64,000 bases of DNA from Thraustochytrium sp. TN22 (Eukaryota > Sar > Bigyra > Thraustochytrida > Thraustochytriidae). Each line of letters starts with the position of its first letter. The first letter of the stretch is position 1. The position numbers were made by a program, and so were the translations under genes. The stretch covers positions 44,905 through 108,904 of the forward strand of contig JABLUY010000101.1 in the NCBI GenBank assembly GCA_013306675.1. Direction: 5' to 3'. Below are positions 11,934 through 22,832 of this stretch, one piece after another. Below the pieces are notes generated by a model. That model ran no database searches. It was not told the DNA's origin and saw nothing but the letters and a program-made list of their open reading frames with translations.

Positions 11934-13037
11934 TTACACCTCGGCCAGGGTGGCAGTGCGCGCGTCCCCCGCGGCAGCGGAACCCTGACTTCCCGACATG
12001 TACTGGCCACTCAGTCGAACCGACTCGGTCTGCCGCGCCGTAAATCCAGACGGCGTGAGTAGGCGCCAGGACTTGTAGATGGAGAGTGCTACCAGGGTGG
12101 AGTACACCAGCGCTACCCACGTGAAGAACGCAAAGGCCGCCGCAGCACCCGCCTTTCCCTCGCCAATCTTGGCAGGGAAAAGCCCCTCCCCGAAGGAATC
12201 AACGAAGTTGCGGAAGGAGCGAAGCATCTGCGCGTTGGTCGCAGCAGCGGCGAAGGCTGTCAGCGAGAGCACCATGAGGATCGGATCCGCGATGCCCCCT
12301 ACGAGAGCAAAGGAGTACGAGAGACGGTCTGAGTTGCGCGTCCCCAGCGTCAAGAACCCTACGCCCGCCGAGGCCCCGGCGTACAGGGTGACCATGAGCA
12401 TCAGTACAACCGTCCAGATGATACCAGACAACATGCCATCGAGAGGCGCGCTCTCCGTGGCGGACTTAAAATCGCTCATGGCGCTCGCAGCGCACGCCCA
12501 GGAGATGAGCGAGAGTACGCCCTGAACCACGCGGGCCACGATGAGACAGTTCACGCTCGTCTGCACCTCCTCAGTCGTGTCCGCATCCGCGTTGATGCCC
12601 ACAGACGGTGCCCAGGAAGGAAGCATCTTCACCTCCAGCACTGGCGGCATAGATGCCCTTGACCGTCGCCGCTTGTCGTTGAAGGTGCCCTGCCCGCGCG
12701 ACGAGGATGGGGACGTGCCCGCAAAGAAGTCAACGTGCGACCGATTCGCCTGGCTGCCCATGGACTCCCGCGCGCCCGTGGCGACCGGCGATGGCCTCCG
12801 GCTGGCCTCCTCCTGCAGCGTCGCATCATCCCCAACTTCCACAGGGATGGCCTCCTGCACCTCGCTCTGGCCCCGTTGCGCCTCCTGATCTTCCTGCTGC
12901 GCCGCATTGGGCGCCGTGCTCTCCGTCTGCAAATCCACGGCGGCGGCCTGCGCCTCCGTCTGCGCGTCCTTCTGCGCGTCCGACTGCGCGTCCGCCTCGC
13001 CCGCGCTGCCGGCCGTGTCGGCTTCCTTGGCGCTCAT
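11934..13037 (-). CDS. Tetraspan MARVEL/CASP-like membrane protein (left copy)
   Basis: 367 residues from the ATG at 13037. Residues 1-150 are disordered, rich in Ala, Gln, Glu and Ser. Four membrane helices follow: NCLIVARVVQGVLSLISWAC, then TVVLMLMVTLYAGASAGVGF, then FALVGGIADPILMVLSLTAF, then AAAFAFFTWVALVYSTLVAL. A basic residue in helix 1 (ARVVQ) and an Asp in helix 3 (GGIADP) are the hallmark pair of CASP/MARVEL proteins, which form membrane-domain scaffolds. The gene at 22077-22832 has the same four-helix plan, including the A-A-A-F-x-F-F entry to helix 4, so the two are probably paralogs. Function here is unknown. Confidence 0.7.
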   Translation of the reverse strand: MSAKEADTAGSAGEADAQSDAQKDAQTEAQAAAVDLQTESTAPNAAQQEDQEAQRGQSEVQEAIPVEVGDDATLQEEASRRPSPVATGARESMGSQANRSHVDFFAGTSPSSSRGQGTFNDKRRRSRASMPPVLEVKMLPSWAPSVGINADADTTEEVQTSVNCLIVARVVQGVLSLISWACAASAMSDFKSATESAPLDGMLSGIIWTVVLMLMVTLYAGASAGVGFLTLGTRNSDRLSYSFALVGGIADPILMVLSLTAFAAAATNAQMLRSFRNFVDSFGEGLFPAKIGEGKAGAAAAFAFFTWVALVYSTLVALSIYKSWRLLTPSGFTARQTESVRLSGQYMSGSQGSAAAGDARTATLAEV

Positions 13038-13639
13038 GTTGCCGCTGGCGGCGCCGTCCCGGCCCTGCCCGTCCCGCCTGCGCGCCCGCTCGCTCGCCCG
13101 GGGCTCGGGCGCCCCGCCGCTGCGCCCGCTGCAGCCGCCGCCGCTGTCCCTCCTCGCGCGCGCGCCCGCTCGCCCGCTCGCTCGCTCGCTCGCGCAGCCG
13201 CCGCGGTGGTTGGGGTTCTGGCGGGCGTGGGCGGCGCTCGTCAGCGCCCTCACTCGCCTCGCAAACTCGCGTTGCTGAGGATCATGTGAGACACTCTGAT
13301 CTCATCTGACTGACGCGTCATCTGAGGCAGCTCCGATGTGCGCGCAAGGCGCGGTGCGGCACGCAAAGGCACGACGCAGCACGACCGCTGCCCGCAGCAC
13401 GACCGCAGCACGACCGCAGCGCAGCGCAGCGCAGAGCGCCAAAAGTGACGAGAACTCGTGCTGGACTGCTCACTGTCAGGCAGGCAAGGGGCGGCAAGGG
13501 ACGCAATGGACTGCAGCACGGATGACGGGGCTCGCGCACGTGCCGTGGATTAACGTTAACGTTAGGCCTAAGCCTTACAGAGCTAGGCTAGACTGGCTGA
13601 GGCGAGGCGAGTGGTAGGATTCACATCAGAGGACTGCTC
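13038..13639. other. Intergenic region
   Basis: Upstream of the left tetraspan gene. It contains CTCG runs (13160-13200), a GCAGCACGACCGCA repeat cluster (13375-13435) and GTTAACGTTAACGTTAGG near 13550. I see no gene. Confidence 0.4.
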
Positions 13640-14485
13640 TTACCTACCCAACTTAGTCGGAAGGAGGTCTGCTCGGCCTTGACCTCGCTCAAGCTTGGCT
13701 TGCAGCAAGAGAAGGGCCGAGAGCAAGAGGCCCGTGGCATGGTGCGGGCGGAGAGATATGAAGTGAAGGCGGAGGAACGGCCGGGGCGAGCGCGCGCCAA
13801 GTCGCCAGCGCCGTGCCGCCAAAGCCTGCAGCGAGGAGCACGGAGAGCACTGGGGTAAAAAGACTTGCGGCGTGGGGCGGCGAAAGAGCGCGGAGAAGCG
13901 CGAGCGCGACTGAACGTGGTGCTCCTGCACTTTAATAGGCGGCATGTGGTCCGCGTAGAAGCCAGCGCGACCTGGGCGGCGCGTGCCACACGTGTGGCAG
14001 CCGTACCGGCGGCCGAGGCGGGCCACAGCACGGCGCTCGGCGGGTTTGGCGTAGCGCGGACCGGCAGGCAGGCTCTCCCGCGCGAAGGCCCCGGGCCGAA
14101 GCACGTCGCTGGGGAGGACGCCCGCAAAGCTGCCGCCCAGCGCCTTGAAGGCGACGAGTGTCGCGCCCGTCCATGCCGCGCGGTCCCGGCGCGATGGCGC
14201 GCTCCCGCTTGTCTTCTCCTTGGAGTCCTGCACCAGCACTGAGGCGTCCAGAAGCGTGTGCGAAGCCTCTGCGGCAGCAGCCACGAGCGCCACCCCGGCA
14301 CCCGAGCTGACCACCGGGATCGCGCAGCTGAGGCCGACGGCCGCGGCGGCCAGCTGGCCGGCCGCGAGCGCCGCCACGAAGGCCGCGCCGCCCGCCGCGC
14401 TCAGCGCCACGGCCGCGGGCACGCCGACCCGCGCGGCAGCGCCGCCGCCGCCGCCGCCGCCGCGAGGCTCGGCGGCGGCCTGCAT
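13640..14485 (-). CDS. Uncharacterised Cys/His protein with HNH-like motif order
   Basis: 281 residues in one exon. Residues 20-75 are a long Ala/Gly/Val hydrophobic stretch that could be membrane helices or a targeting sequence. The core has C-x2-C-G at Cys163/Cys166 (YGCHTCGT), then FYADHMPPIKV with Asp179-His180, then FLPQCSPCSSLQ with Cys213/Cys216. The order CxxC, DHxxP, CxxC is that of zinc-stabilised HNH/treble-clef proteins, but I cannot confirm a nuclease and the final His/Asn is not obvious. The residues after SLQ are Arg- and Leu-rich and may read through an unrecognised intron. It sits between the left tetraspan and rhodopsin genes and has no counterpart in the right arm. Confidence 0.55.
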   Translation of the reverse strand: MQAAAEPRGGGGGGGAAARVGVPAAVALSAAGGAAFVAALAAGQLAAAAVGLSCAIPVVSSGAGVALVAAAAEASHTLLDASVLVQDSKEKTSGSAPSRRDRAAWTGATLVAFKALGGSFAGVLPSDVLRPGAFARESLPAGPRYAKPAERRAVARLGRRYGCHTCGTRRPGRAGFYADHMPPIKVQEHHVQSRSRFSALFRRPTPQVFLPQCSPCSSLQALAARRWRLGARSPRPFLRLHFISLRPHHATGLLLSALLLLQAKLERGQGRADLLPTKLGR

Positions 14486-15015: not shown

Positions 15016-17155
15016 TCACATGTAGTCGACGCGGCTGTTGCGCGGGTCGCCGCGGCGCGGGCCGCTGCGCGGCGCTTCGTCGAAGGAACGGCGGCCAGTG
15101 CCGCGGGAGACGCCCGAATCGCCACGCTGGTAGGGCGGGCGTCCGCCCTCAAAGGAGATGCCACGACCGGAGTGCTGACGCTGCAAGCCGCGGTGATCGC
15201 GCTCAGCGAAGTCCTGCGAAGCGAAGCTCTGGCTGCGAGGGTAGGTCGAGGTCCGGGCGTTGGGCTCGTCAGGGCGGCCGCCGGGGTAAGGGCCGTACGG
15301 ATCGTCGCGCACCTGGCCGGGGACGTGATGGGCGCCCGGGGCGGCGTGGGCAGAACGCGGGCTACGGGGCGTGTGGCTCTCGCGCGCGTACGGGTCTTGC
15401 GGTTGCATCGGGTAGCCGCCGCCTTCCGGGCGATGCGCGTAGGGCTCCTCGAAGCCGTGCTCGTCCGGGTAGCCACCGGCGTATCCGCGCTGAGCGCCGG
15501 AGAGAGCCTGATCCATGTCCCAGTGGTGAAAGTCTTCGCCGCGGTCCTCGGTCATGACGGAGCGATCGTCGTAGTTGCTGTCCCCAGCAGAGCGGGCGGT
15601 GGGGGAGCGATGGACACCCTGGACGTTGTCGTAGAGCTTGCGCTCAATGTCAGCGGTCACGTCAATGTCGCGCCAGTGGGAGGCAGCCTCCTTCCAGTGC
15701 ACGATGAGGTCATGCATGTGGGTCTCATCGAGCACATGGCGAATGATGCCGTCGCAGATGGTGCGCTGGCGCTCCTCGGTCTCGAGCAGTTCGATCATGT
15801 TGTCCTCATCGAAGGTGTAGCCGAGAACTGGAAGGTAGTACGGCTTGCGGTGGTAGTGGTTGCGGAAGCGCTGCACCTCGACGCGCTTCTCCGGCGAGAG
15901 CTTAATGTTGACGAAGACGACGTGGTAGGTGCCGAGGTGGTCGCGCTTGAGCAGGTGCACCGCCATGTTGAGGTTGAAGGCGAACTCCGTGATGACACCG
16001 GTCTGGGAGAGCATGAGCGAGAACAGGCGCTGCATCTCGATACGCGGCTCGACAATGAGAACAGTCGGGCTCTTGCGGCCAATGGGGCGGCGCACGCGCT
16101 TCTTGCGCAGCGTCTCGTCTGTGACCTCACCCAGCTTGAACTGCTTCGCGGTGAAGTTCTGCGCGTACGGGGTGACGGCATTGTTGCCTACGGCACGAGC
16201 GTGGTACGGGCCGAGCACCTCATAGTGGACGTACCAGATGAGGAAGACGAGGCCGTTCTTGGCAAAGAGGTCGGCAACAGCGTGAGAGATACGGTCCACC
16301 TGCGAGGTGAGGATGTTCAACATGGGCGGGCCCACCACGTAGAGGATAGGGTACACGCTCCACGTAATGGCCATCATACCAAGCGTCAGGCACACCCACT
16401 GCCAGGCACGCTCGTGCCGAGCAAAGTACTTGCGGCGGTGGTACGCGAGCAATCCAACGTCGTAGAAGACAGCGCCCATGGCAATGAAGGATACAACAAT
16501 GAAGACGGCCTTGAGACCAATGGCGCGCTGGAAACCACCAACCAAGCCTGTCGCAATCATGACGATGCACTTCATCATCACAAAGCTGACCTGGCCAGCG
16601 TCCACCAGCTCAGGAGTCAGGCAGTTGAGCATCAGATTCATGTCGGCAAAAATCATCGGGCAGGTCACTGTTGGTACGTTGGGTAGCGTGCGTCAGTCAC
16701 AACTGTCTTGCTTCCTTCTCAAAAGAGCACGTTTCTGTAGAGACTCGCCGAGGCGTGAAGATGAGGAGAATGTTTGCGCAAGAGTGAAACGTACTCAGCC
16801 AGTAGCTGTATCTGCCCAGGGCAAACTCAAAGGGCTCCTCGTTGCTGCCCTCGATGTTGACGTAGAAGTGGTCCGCATTGCCAAAGGTGTTCACGCTGTA
16901 AAAGCAGACCACAACCGCCTGCACGAAAATGGGCTGCGGGTTGCCACGGTTCTGATACAGCTGCGATGTGAAGAAGATGAGCAAAATGATGGAGCACGCA
17001 AAGACGCAGAGGCTAGCGCCGAAAACACCAGACAGGTTTGTCTCCGTGCCGCTTGTCTCCTGGAGGGATCGGAACGTGGGCCACGTAAAGCGCCAGTTCG
17101 ACTCGTCCTGCATGGCGTCAATGCCCATCTGGGCGCCGGCCATTAGGGTATCCAT
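15016..17155 (-). CDS. Channelrhodopsin-like rhodopsin fused to degenerate receiver domain (copy A)
   Basis: Exons 17155-16795 and 16667-15016 (127-nt GTACGT...CAG intron, phase 1), 670 residues. Seven-helix microbial rhodopsin at residues ~40-272. Helix C is RYSYWLMTCPMIFAD, aligning with RYAEWLLTCPVI of ChR2; Arg115 is kept and the counterion position (ChR2 Glu123, BR Asp85) is Tyr118. Helix F WSVYP (Trp223, Pro227) is as in bacteriorhodopsin. Helix G SHAVADLFAKN carries Asp253 and the retinal Schiff-base Lys257. The helix-B glutamates of cation channelrhodopsins are absent, which fits the anion channelrhodopsins known from labyrinthulea. Residues ~320-440 look like a receiver domain (PTVLIVEPRIEMQRLF), but the phospho-acceptor Asp is Asn374. 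A conserved HW-x-EA-x2-HWR-x-ID helix and a Pro/Gly/Arg-rich tail follow. Light-gated ion conductance is inferred. Confidence 0.9.
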
Positions 17156-18129
17156 GGCGACCTCGGCGTGAACAGAACCCTTTCCGCGGCTTGTCACTTC
17201 TAAGCTTGCTGTCGCTGCGGCTGCTACTGATGGTCCGTCTTCTGCTTCGCTGCGCTGCCGCCAATGCCGGCCTGAGGCAGGCTCGCCTGCCTGCCTGAAC
17301 TGCCCAGGCGCGGCACGCGGCCGAAAGAAGGTTTGCCGCCGGCTCGCACCAACGCGAGCTTGGCGACCACCCTCCACCAGCGAGCGAGTAGAATGAAGCA
17401 CAGATCCGGCGCGCTGGCAGCGTGCTTGCTACTCAACGGGTCGATCATGCAGATCGTTGGCCTGCCTTGGCGGCGACACAAACAGTGCGTCGCTGCCGCG
17501 CCGCTCTGAAATCCGTTCCGCGCCGCTCTCCAGTGCGAAACGCAGCGTCCACTCTGCAGGTGAAGTGCAGCCGTACAGTCTGCCCGCGTTCTCCAAGCCT
17601 TTGCGGTGCACAGTGTGACCGCTGTGCCGTACACGATACCGGCGCCTAGCCGTTTTTCGCGCGCGACCCGCCCGCCCGCTTGCCACTGTGGCAGCTCCGC
17701 GAGCGCGGACCCAAGCTTGGCGCAACGGCCTCTTGACACGTTCTAGCGTATGCACAGTGAACATCCAGAGGTAGCCGTTTCATGCAGATGGCAGGGGCCG
17801 CTCCGCACATCCCTGACGCGCGCATCAAGGCGAGCGCGTCATGCCGACCTCTCGATGTCCATGTCGCCGCGTCGCCTGGAGTCAGCTCCTTGGCAAAAGG
17901 TGTACAGAACCGTTGAGGCAGGTGCTCATTTGACCCGACACAGTACCTCGCAACGCGACACAGTTGAGGGATCAACAATGCATTCCCGGGAGACAGCGTA
18001 ACTTTCAAGCTCGCCAGCTAACGAACGAGACATGGCCAATTTGCTTGACATGGCATGACTCTGCGGCAACGCCGCTTACCCGAAAAACAAGGCGCGCTGA
18101 TCGATCGCCAGGTGCGGTAGCTAGCGGAC

Positions 18130-18169
18130 ACTAGTAGCTAGCTAGCTAGCTAGCTAGCTAGCTACTAGT
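18130..18169. repeat. Perfect 40-bp palindrome within (TAGC)n
   Basis: The two 20-bp halves (18130-18149 and 18150-18169) are exact reverse complements. The core is TAGC repeats bounded by ACTAGTAG and its complement. It lies within about 100 bp of the midpoint between the two rhodopsin start codons (17155 and 18977). Confidence 0.9.
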
Positions 18170-18514
18170 AGCTAGCTAGCTAGCTAGAGCAAGCCTTCTG
18201 ACTCGGGCTCAGGCCAGGCTCGGGCGCTCACTGCAGGCCAGGCTCGGGTGCTCACTGAAGTCATTGCGGTCTCAATCTCTAGCTGGCTAGGTAGCTAGGG
18301 TCCCTTACTATTACTCTAGAGCTAGCCTGGAGCTGGCCTGGCGAACGGAACATTCCGTCCACTGTGTGCCACTGACGCCCCCGTTGCGGTTCCGTTGGGG
18401 TATCCGGTGGAAGTAGCACCGGACTCCACTGTGCAGTTCTCTGCTGGCGAAAGGTGGCCGGCCGGCCGGCGGGCAGGCAGGCTACGCACATGCATGTATT
18501 TACATGGCGTTGCG

Positions 18515-18640
18515 ATGCGTTGTGATGCGTTGCATTGCGTTGCGTTGTGTTGCGTTGCGTTGTGTTGCGTTGCGTTGTGATGCGCGTTGTAATGCGATGC
18601 GATGCGTTGCGATGCGACGGTGACGCAACGGGATGCGATG
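18515..18640. repeat. TTGCG / TTGTG / ATGCG repeat
   Basis: Degenerate pentamer and hexamer array (GCGTTGCGTTGTGTTGCG type) in the 5' flank of rhodopsin B. It yields only repetitive Asn/Thr/Gln or Leu/Cys/Val peptides and is judged noncoding. Confidence 0.75.
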
Positions 18641-18976
18641 CGTTGCAACTTCGCACTGTCTTGCCTTGGTCTGTTGCCTCGAATACGTTTCCACTGCACT
18701 GTAGCGCACTGTGGCTGCACGCGCCCGCTTGGCTCGCCTCTTCGAGTTCCACGCGGCGCTCGCCGGATTTCTGGCGAGTTGCTTGAGAGGCTGCGCGAGC
18801 GAGCATGGAAAGACGCGCCGCAAACCCCTTTCTTTCCGGGCGTGGCGTCGAGGCCGCGACAACCCGGGGCAAAGCAGGCAACAGGACAGGCAGGGAGCTA
18901 GGCCAACCGGAGCCCGACTTCACCTTGCGAGCTAGCTGGCCGCCGCTCCGCTTGAGGCGCGAGACGAGCGAGCCAG

Positions 18977-21186
18977 ATGCAGGCCGCCGAGATGGGCGAT
19001 ATGATCTCGGATATGTGGTCCGCTGACGTGAAGCAGCGCGTGCTGTCGGAGATTGTTTCGTCGGAGCTTGTTTCGAGTACCAAGGTGGTCTCGCAGGGCG
19101 TGGCCGGTGCCCGGCTGTGTACTTTTGCTTGCAGCATTGCGCTCCTCGTGTTCTACGCCTTCCAGTGGCGCGCGGGTCGCTGCAACCACCATCCCATCTA
19201 CGTGCAGTTTGTGACCTTTTGTGTCTACGTGCTCTCCTGCTTCGGCACCACGGACTTCCTGTACATTCCCATCGAGGACCACAATGGCGTCGTCTTTGAC
19301 CTCGCAATTGGCCGCTACCTCTTCTGGATGAGTAAGTCAACTCGGGCCTATGGTCTGCCGTCGTCACCTGGCCTTTGCTTTCCGGTATACTGATGCGCCC
19401 GCTCCCTGACACCTCTCGCAGCTACCTGCCCTGTGATCATTTCCAACGTAAACGTGCTGCTCAACATCATGACCCCCGACGATATTGAGCTGCCTAAAAT
19501 CACATTCATGATGGTGGAGGATATCGTCATGATCGCCTTCGGTGTGCTTGCGGCCATGCAAAAGAATCTCATGCTCAAGATCGTCTTCAACGTGCTCTCC
19601 TACCTCGTCAGCGTAAGTTTCTTCAGCACTCGTTCGCCCGAGTCTGTTTCGTGTGAAGTGCCCAAAACCACGAAAAATGCACTGTCACACCCCACGAGCA
19701 GACAAGCTGACCTACCTTCTCGCACTTGACTCAGTTTCTTCTGGCTTGGGATCTGTACAAGCAGATGCAGGAGAAGAAGAAGTTCTTCGCCAACCACGAG
19801 CGCTGCTGGGAGTGGGTGGTCTTCACCATGATCTGGTTCTACTGCTCCCAGTCGCTCTTCATCGTCCTGTACGCGGTGGGCCCGCCCTGCTTTGCCTGGA
19901 TGGGCTCGGACGGCGATCGCATTGGCCACAGTGTCGGCGACCTTCTGGCCAAGAACCTCTTCGGCTTCCTCGTCTGGTACGTCCGCTTCGTTGTGCTTGA
20001 CCCGTACGTGAGGCGCATCCGCGGTGCTCGGGCTGTGTCGCCGTATGCGCACAAGAACCTCGTCACTTCCGGCGACACGCACAAGGATTCCTTCGTCTTG
20101 CGCAAGCATCTCAAGAAGGAGAACAAGTTCGGCGTGCGTGGCCCGCGTGTCCTCGTGATTGAGCCGCGCATCGAGCTGCAGCGTCTTTTCATGTTTCTCC
20201 TGCGTGAGGCCGGCATTGAGGGCGAGATTGCCTTCGATCTGCACTCTGCGACCAAGGTCATCAAGCGCGATGCCCTCACGCACTACGATGCGGTCATCCT
20301 GAACATGGCAGTCGCTTTCGAGAACCGCTCCGACACTCAGAAGTTCCGCATGCACTTCCGCTGCAAGCCGTTCTACCTCCCGGTCCTCGGCTACTGCTTC
20401 GAGGAGGAGAGCTACGGTCCGCTCATCGAGCGCGAGGAGACCGAGCGCATGCTCGCGGACGGCTTCGTGCGCCACGTGCTCGACGAGGCCCACCTCTTCG
20501 ACGTTCTTGCCCACTGGCGCGAGGCCTCCACGCATTGGCGCGAGATCGACGACTCTGCTGACATGGAGCGCCGCCTGCACCAGAACGTTCAGGGTGTTCA
20601 CATGTCTCCGGTGATCGAGGACGACATTGGCGGCGTCAGTCTGGTGGACGGCTCTCACACGGACGACAACGAGATTTTCGAATCTGACGGTCATTCTGAC
20701 GAGGCTAGCCTTTCCGGTTTTCCGCCCCCGGCCAGTCCTCCCGATAGCAAGCCCTCCCGCGCCCCACCCGCCAACCCGAGCACCCGCCCCCCCGGATCCA
20801 GCCGTGACACTTCCTCTGTGCACAGCACTGAGAACGCTCGCATCTCGCTCCGCCGCAAGAGCGCCTTTGAGGTCATGAACGAGAACCTTCGCCGCCAGCT
20901 TAAGCAGGAGGAGTCCACCTTCAACCGCCTTGCTCAGCAAGGCCACCACCACGCCGAGGACCACAACCCCGCTGAGACGCAGCAGTACCATGCTCCCCAC
21001 CAGGACCACGTCTCTCACCATCCGGCCCAGCTCGGCGGCGCGCCCACCGGCGCCGGCGCCGCTAACACGCCCGGCCCCATGATGACTGACGGCACCGACC
21101 ATGAGGACGACCTCGATGACCTCGAAGAGGACGAGTCGGCCCCCAAGCGGCGCTCCAGCCTCATCATCAAGGGCTCCATGATGTAA
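18977..21186 (+). CDS. Channelrhodopsin-like rhodopsin fused to degenerate receiver domain (copy B)
   Basis: Exons 18977-19331, 19422-19612 and 19735-21186 (introns of 90 and 122 nt), 665 residues. The first intron has the same position and phase as in copy A, just before the TCP of helix C; the second is unique. Helix C is RYLFWMTTCPVIISN, with Phe116 at the counterion site and Asn127 where copy A has Asp129. Helix G GHSVGDLLAKN has Asp251 and Schiff-base Lys255. Helix F is unusual: the W-S-x-Y-P motif of copy A and bacteriorhodopsin reads Q221-S-L-F224-I225. The receiver-like part (PRVLVIEPRIELQRLF) again has Asn372 for the phospho-Asp. A conserved HWREASTHWREIDDSAD helix and a His/Pro/Ser-rich tail follow. 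Anion-channelrhodopsin-type light gating is inferred; the altered pocket suggests different spectral tuning or loss of activity. Confidence 0.9.
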
Positions 21187-22076: not shown

Positions 22077-22832
22077 ATGGGCTCCGATGCGGTCGTCGTC
22101 GATAGCGCCACGGTGCCCGAATCGCCTGGCGTGGTGAGCGTGGAGGAGGACTCTGGCACGCCGGAGGTGGACGGCTATGTGGACACCAGCCCGCCAGCGG
22201 TGCCGGTGCCAGCGGCTGCCCCGAAGGCTAAGAGCCGCGGTTTCCGTGGCAACGCAACATCATCCACGGGGCTCGTCGCCACCCTCGGCCTGCAGCCGAC
22301 AACGCCTGCCCAGGCCGACGCCCTCGTCAAGCGTACAATGATCCTGCGAGGCGTGCAGTGCCTGCTCGCCCTCTTGGCACTGGCCCTGGCTGCTGCTGAC
22401 AAGGATTTTGTCGGCCTGAGCGGCGTTGATTGGGGCGTGGCCTGTGCGGCGCTCGCCTTTGCCTTCGCGCTTGCGCAGGTGGCCTTGAGCCTGCTGACGC
22501 TGTCCGCCGGGAAGCGCAATGACGTTGTCGTCAAGGCGCTCGTGGTCTCTGGCATCGCAGGGGACCTGCTCTTCTCCTATCTGGTGATGTCGTCCTTCTC
22601 GACCGTCGCGACAATCTCCGCACTCTGCGTTCCGATCAACATTAACACCGGCACGACGACCTACGTGCAGTCCTGCTCGACGATCCGGGCCGCGGCCGCC
22701 TTTGGCTTCTTCCTCTTTGCCTCCTTCGTCGCCGCTCTGCCGTTTTCCATGGCAATCTTCGTGCGTCGCGAGCTGCTTCCCGAGGATGCGCGTGCCACGC
22801 TGCGTCACGACGAGAACGACATTGGCGTGTAA
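22077..22832 (+). CDS. Tetraspan MARVEL/CASP-like membrane protein (right copy)
   Basis: 251 residues. A Pro/Val/Ser-rich N-terminus of ~80 residues is followed by four helices: TMILRGVQCLLALLALALAA, then GVACAALAFAFALAQVALSL, then VVSGIAGDLLFSYLVMSS, then AAAAFGFFLFASFVAALPFS. As in the left copy, helix 1 carries an Arg and helix 3 an Asp (SGIAGD). The loop before helix 4 has two cysteines. It is shorter than the left copy because the disordered N-terminus and C-tail are reduced. It lies downstream of rhodopsin B as the left copy lies downstream of rhodopsin A, and converges with DHX16. Role unknown; a membrane scaffold or channel partner is only a guess. Confidence 0.7.
   Translation: MGSDAVVVDSATVPESPGVVSVEEDSGTPEVDGYVDTSPPAVPVPAAAPKAKSRGFRGNATSSTGLVATLGLQPTTPAQADALVKRTMILRGVQCLLALLALALAAADKDFVGLSGVDWGVACAALAFAFALAQVALSLLTLSAGKRNDVVVKALVVSGIAGDLLFSYLVMSSFSTVATISALCVPININTGTTTYVQSCSTIRAAAAFGFFLFASFVAALPFSMAIFVRRELLPEDARATLRHDENDIGV

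Follow-up and report, generated by a model that had tools for sequence, protein, structure and literature searches.

Introduction

Several colours of anion channelrhodopsin (ACR) occur in one labyrinthulean, Aurantiochytrium limacinum, whose AlACR1–3 reportedly absorb at 590, 545 and 485 nm according to the RubyACR abstract. RubyACRs are described as having absorption maxima of 590–610 nm (PMC10147648), and HfACR1, the RubyACR of Hondaea fermentalgiana, is given as reaching up to 610 nm in a source that also attributes flagellate zoospores to most thraustochytrids and proposes a role in phototaxis (PMC8818676). Vegetative cells of A. limacinum are reported to have significantly less of the RubyACR AlACR1 than its zoospores (PMC12221091). 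What the long C-terminal halves of channelrhodopsins do is still unclear, as stated in PMC12448745. Here we describe two channelrhodopsin-like genes, A and B, that lie head to head within 64,000 nucleotides of the Thraustochytrium sp. TN22 genome (contig JABLUY010000101.1, positions 44,905 to 108,904; hereafter the window). We consider it quite likely that the locus is an old pair of labyrinthulean ACRs, in which gene B is the red-light orthologue of HfACR1 and gene A a shorter-wave sister, both carrying pseudo-receivers for docking, and that the two colours could serve to steer zoospores.

Results

Two channelrhodopsin-like proteins of the labyrinthulean family

The gene models agree with a first-pass annotation of the window, which had placed two rhodopsin genes back to back with 1.8 kb between their starts; the measured ATG-to-ATG gap is 1,821 bp, and the proteins comprise 670 (A) and 665 (B) residues. 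Both contain the annotated RY-x2-W-x3-CP motif in helix C (RYSYWLMTCP at R115 in A; RYLFWMTTCP at R113 in B) and the retinal lysine in helix G (K257 and K255), together with the helix-G Asp counterion. Homologues reach E-values of 5.4e-184 (A) and 1.2e-253 (B), indicating that the genes are not chance open frames. In a hidden Markov model search against microbial-rhodopsin families, the second exon of gene A exceeded the Pfam PF01036 cut-off (8.4e-16); the third exon of gene B alone fell just below it (4.7e-5; 23.4 versus 24.6 bits) because this gene is split into exons, and its full-length relatives matched clearly (P0003, 1.7e-16; P0004, 6.7e-22). Supporting the proposed labyrinthulean channelrhodopsin identity, channelrhodopsins made up the best nine of 62 matches when the family profile was compared with the PDB, and the best nine of 16 when gene B was used as a single sequence.

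The helix-B glutamates are absent from both copies, as annotated: the columns of GtACR1 E60 and E68 hold Q and V in A and H and T in B, versus E and E in C1C2, Chrimson and GtACR1. Although GtACR1 is an anion channel, it retains both residues; most ACRs keep Glu90, the prasinophyte and labyrinthulean ones being the exceptions (PMC8406140). The loss in A and B thus fits a labyrinthulean anion channel without proving one.

Relatives were sought among about 5.8 billion proteins, which yielded two for gene A (7,699 candidates) and at least five for gene B (best 8,000 candidates). A family-alignment search of this collection added no new relative among the 7,999 candidates listed, and viral contigs gave 238 pattern matches and no relatives. 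The closest match to each gene came from H. fermentalgiana, namely FCC1311_007882 (P0002) for A and FCC1311_007872 (P0003, 61% identity) for B. From their locus tags alone, which differ by ten, these two counterparts seem to be neighbouring genes. In a tree of the rhodopsin plus pseudo-receiver parts from which the long-branched P0006 was left out, gene A grouped with the A-like P0001 and P0002 (100/99) and gene B with the B-like P0003 and P0004 (97/96); with P0006 included, the corresponding values were 81/100 and 100/99. A rhodopsin-only tree with five references held the ten family members together (94/97), beside C1C2 and Chrimson.

Intact channelrhodopsin genes number at least four in the genome (37.9 Mb, 453 contigs), namely A, B, one on contig C443 (L001:97-2223) and one on C404 (L002:1228-3402). 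The latter two are single open frames that also encode a pseudo-receiver and, at the C-terminus, a MYND zinc finger (5.1e-8 and 2.4e-8). A lebercilin-domain (ciliary) gene (6.3e-11; L017:2989-4737, minus strand) is located some 2.5 kb upstream of the C404 frame, in divergent orientation. Elsewhere, an isolated fragment 66% identical to the gene B pseudo-receiver (L010; C299:121274-121444) is apparently a decayed partial copy.

Orthology and predicted colours

Residues unique to RubyACRs are named in PMC11473104 through the MsACR1 mutations F138N, W142Y, W182Q and G186I, position 186 being P186 of bacteriorhodopsin; we assumed bacteriorhodopsin numbers for F138, W142 and W182 as well. Gene B carries the RubyACR pocket (N175, Y179, Q221 and I225), and the same N/Y/Q/I set is found in both B-like relatives, whereas gene A has I177, F181, W223 and P227. 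The two-colour locus put forward in the first-pass annotation is therefore likely, and gene A is predicted, from its missing Ruby pocket, to absorb at a shorter wavelength than B.

HfACR1 residues are numbered F104, M143 and A242 in PMC12448745. P0003 has exactly these residues at these positions and is thus very probably HfACR1. Their equivalents in gene B are F116, M155 and A254; the trio is non-specific, as P0002 also has F/M/A and gene A has Y/M/A. Gene B is a probable orthologue of the red-light anion channel HfACR1, with which it shares 79% identity over helices A–G, the N/Y/Q/I pocket, the pseudo-receiver and a C-terminal KGSMM tail. It differs in belonging to another species and in having 12 more residues before the lysine (255 versus 243).

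A degenerate receiver domain

The C-terminal domain, annotated as receiver-like, does have a receiver fold according to a predicted model and a sequence profile, with the alternating five-strand arrangement of the response-regulator receivers of SLN1, PhoB and CheY. However, it is a degenerate pseudo-receiver. The phosphoacceptor Asp that those receivers carry at the end of strand 3 is Asn in all nine aligned domains, and also in the truncated P0005. In the strand-1 acidic pair, Glu is kept and the second acidic residue is replaced by Pro in eight of the nine domains and by Asn in one. Given the Asn in all nine, the usual phospho-switch is unlikely. After strand 5, R, H or K precedes an invariant His, as judged by eye. 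Arginine decarboxylases appear among the receivers in the Foldseek and VIA match lists; NCBIfam gave no match up to 0.1 for the gene B domain and weak matches only for those of A and C404.

The green-algal rhodopsin histidine kinases (HKR) described in PMC12558739 likewise join a rhodopsin and a receiver in one chain; in contrast, a Pfam scan found no kinase domain in A or B, and the receiver here is degenerate. A literature search returned no paper containing the whole words 'channelrhodopsin' and 'REC domain', but the original RubyACR paper (PNAS 2020) lay outside that search, so the receiver domain or the linkage may already be reported. The tails that follow the domain (window 15016-15600 and 20611-21186) contain RRKS.FE.MN.NLR.QLK and RR.SLI.KGSMM in all three B-like proteins and RS.SF in all three A-like ones, motifs that look like kinase or anchoring sites.

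Layout of the pair and its flanks

Exon borders (Table 1) were taken from the sequence and homologues, not from transcripts, and all three introns have GT..AG borders. The helix-C intron interrupts homologous codons (codon 121 of A and codon 119 of B) and has the same phase in both genes, pointing to a single ancestral gene that was duplicated. A palindromic assembly artefact was ruled out, since the two proteins are only 34% identical; the single inverted repeat of at least 40 nt is part of the two coding regions and 72% complementary. The intergenic arrays of CTAG tetranucleotides and GCGTT pentanucleotides occupy window positions 18131-18187 and 18507-18616. For a channel gene of known kind, the linked head-to-head arrangement is unusual.

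Each channel gene is followed, on its own side, by a parallel MARVEL-like gene whose product has about four hydrophobic segments. An inverted duplication is suggested by this layout; the two proteins, however, show little similarity (BLASTP E 0.043, 29% over 66 residues), so that their common origin rests on the family match; NCBIfam gave no match up to 0.1 for either. They are the only MARVEL matches in the genome at E <= 0.01, the third being at 0.022, in a search that read exons singly, scored five candidates and may miss others. Among its three matches up to E 10, none lies beside the C443 or C404 channelrhodopsins. Between gene A and its MARVEL-like neighbour, an open reading frame (window 13640-14485, minus strand) has a CHTCG...FYADHMPP stretch and no Pfam match.

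Table 1. Positions of the paired channelrhodopsin genes and flanking genes in the window
Feature	Position	Strand	Remarks
MARVEL-like membrane protein gene, gene A side	11934..13037	-	ATG 13037; open frame 11934-13253; 28.5 bits, under Pfam PF01284 cut-off
Gene A exon 2	15016..16667	-	helices C-G (K257), linker, pseudo-receiver, tail; stop at 15016
Gene A pseudo-receiver domain	15601..16095	-	Asn at phosphoacceptor position
Gene A intron	16668..16794	-	127 bp, GT..AG, phase 1, in helix C
Gene A exon 1	16795..17155	-	N-terminus to helix C; ATG 17155, more in-frame ATGs downstream; homologues
Intergenic region between the two start codons	17156..18976	.	1,821 bp; CTAG and GCGTT tandem repeats
Gene B exon 1	18977..19331	+	ATG 18977; other in-frame ATGs 18992, 19001, 19013
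Gene B intron 1	19332..19421	+	90 bp, GT..AG, phase 1, helix C
Gene B exon 2	19422..19612	+	
Gene B intron 2	19613..19734	+	122 bp, GT..AG; no counterpart in gene A
Gene B exon 3	19735..21186	+	helices E-G (K255), pseudo-receiver, tail ending KGSMM
Gene B pseudo-receiver domain	20116..20610	+	
MARVEL/CASP-like membrane protein gene, gene B side	22077..22832	+	PF01284 32.9 bits vs cut-off 32.8

Discussion

Several observations weigh against reading A and B as two working anion channels of different colour that act together in zoospores. Searched alone, gene A matches Chrimson (2.3e-9) and bacteriorhodopsins (5.7e-9) nearly equally; its placement inside the family is unresolved in the rhodopsin-only tree, where GtACR1 joins archaeal rhodopsins and not the other channelrhodopsins (86/86, long branches). 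Gene A also retains M157 and A256, both associated with red shift, which tempers its assignment to shorter wavelengths, and AlACR2 and AlACR3, too, are reported lower in vegetative cells, though not significantly (PMC12221091). The near tie of Chrimson and bacteriorhodopsins would suit pumps or sensory rhodopsins, but we regard this as highly improbable for the pair: the TCP motif in helix C and the orthology of B to a channel with recorded currents speak against it, and the PDB rankings of the family profile and of B led us to reject it for B and make it unlikely for A. The uneven evolution of gene A raises another alternative, namely that A has stopped working as a channel, the rhodopsin part having drifted or become a pure light sensor while the conserved pseudo-receiver carries the signal. 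Identity of A to P0001 and P0002 is 43% and 42% in the rhodopsin part, versus 79% and 78% in the pseudo-receiver. Gene A shares a tree group and a similar pseudo-receiver with FCC1311_007882, presumably a second labyrinthulean ACR, and departs from it in the rhodopsin, where Tyr replaces Phe in the counterion column (Y118) and Cys replaces the helix-D Asp (C154). These two are among the 22 changes that gene A shows across the 80 rhodopsin sites on which gene B and P0001–P0005 agree, by which channel function could be altered or lost. In the C-terminal part, two of 21 conserved sites are changed, a total that is small because P0005 is truncated; gene B has four changed sites in all (the count left out the two MYND genes and P0006). 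Tajima tests with gene B or P0003 as outgroup indicated faster change in the A rhodopsin (p 0.018–0.044) but not in its pseudo-receiver (p 0.47–0.81). However, the rhodopsin difference was non-significant with C404myn as outgroup (p 0.34 and 0.89), and the same tilt, in milder form, separates P0001 from P0002 (62% rhodopsin, 88% pseudo-receiver), while the two parts of gene B are alike in identity to P0003 (79% and 76%). With its retinal lysine, helix-G Asp, RY..W...CP motif and open frame all intact, a gene A that has ceased to be a channel seems unlikely to us.

The arrangement itself could be neutral, an inverted duplication of a channel–MARVEL block having left the channels head to head without regulatory meaning; we hold this possible while leaning against it. 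The two MARVEL-like flanks and the intron common to A and B are in its favour, and a 1.8-kb spacing is long for a single core promoter serving both genes. Moreover, the 900-bp stretches upstream of the two genes share no promoter words beyond chance under a resampled first-order Markov null (8-mers, 61 versus a mean of 48 and a maximum of 77; 9-mers, 18 versus 15 and 26; 10-mers, 2 versus 3.6; 11-mers, 0 versus 1.2). This also counts against the common control proposed in the first-pass annotation and leaves conserved linkage as the one argument for it. That linkage seems kept to Hondaea, whose B orthologue has diverged to 61% identity, which argues against neutrality, and the weak likeness of the MARVEL proteins to each other weakens the duplication part. 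RFX X-box-like words occur twice upstream of B and 28 times in the whole window, with none upstream of A, C404 or C443. A bacterial-type promoter scan, unsuited to a eukaryote, gave no promoter-like site and one terminator-like site (1.7 expected). A more elaborate scenario, in which a channelrhodopsin–MARVEL block was duplicated in inverted orientation long ago and kept across thraustochytrid genera as a two-colour module, with red and shorter-wave anion channels whose phosphate-refractory pseudo-receivers dock on a shared partner in a MARVEL-organised membrane patch, is speculative and, in our view, doubtful.

Returning to the favoured reading of the locus as a two-colour ACR pair, we propose a plausible mechanism. 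The gene B channel would open a chloride path in orange-red light, and gene A, of the FCC1311_007882 clade and with a conventional W/P pocket, would respond to shorter wavelengths. The membrane potential on which the two channels converge would most plausibly be that of the flagellated zoospore, which could steer its swimming by comparing the two colours. The pseudo-receiver, on the cytoplasmic side, may have been kept as a docking domain that needs no phosphorylation and would tether the channels to a signalling or ciliary complex at the membrane. The organism can probably make retinal, as its genome contains two RPE65 loci and squalene/phytoene-synthase domains; one of these domains is encoded by a 1,306-aa open frame, a candidate for the crtIBY fusion of PMC10016063.

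The kind of channel is known; distinctive here are the linkage of the pair, apparently shared with Hondaea, the pseudo-receiver and the MARVEL-like genes on either side. Studies of colour tuning could make use of both genes, B as a further natural RubyACR variant and A as its strongly diverged sister. The slower-changing pseudo-receiver of gene A, the two linked colours and the two MARVEL-like flanks are concrete candidates for how a heterotrophic protist may read light.

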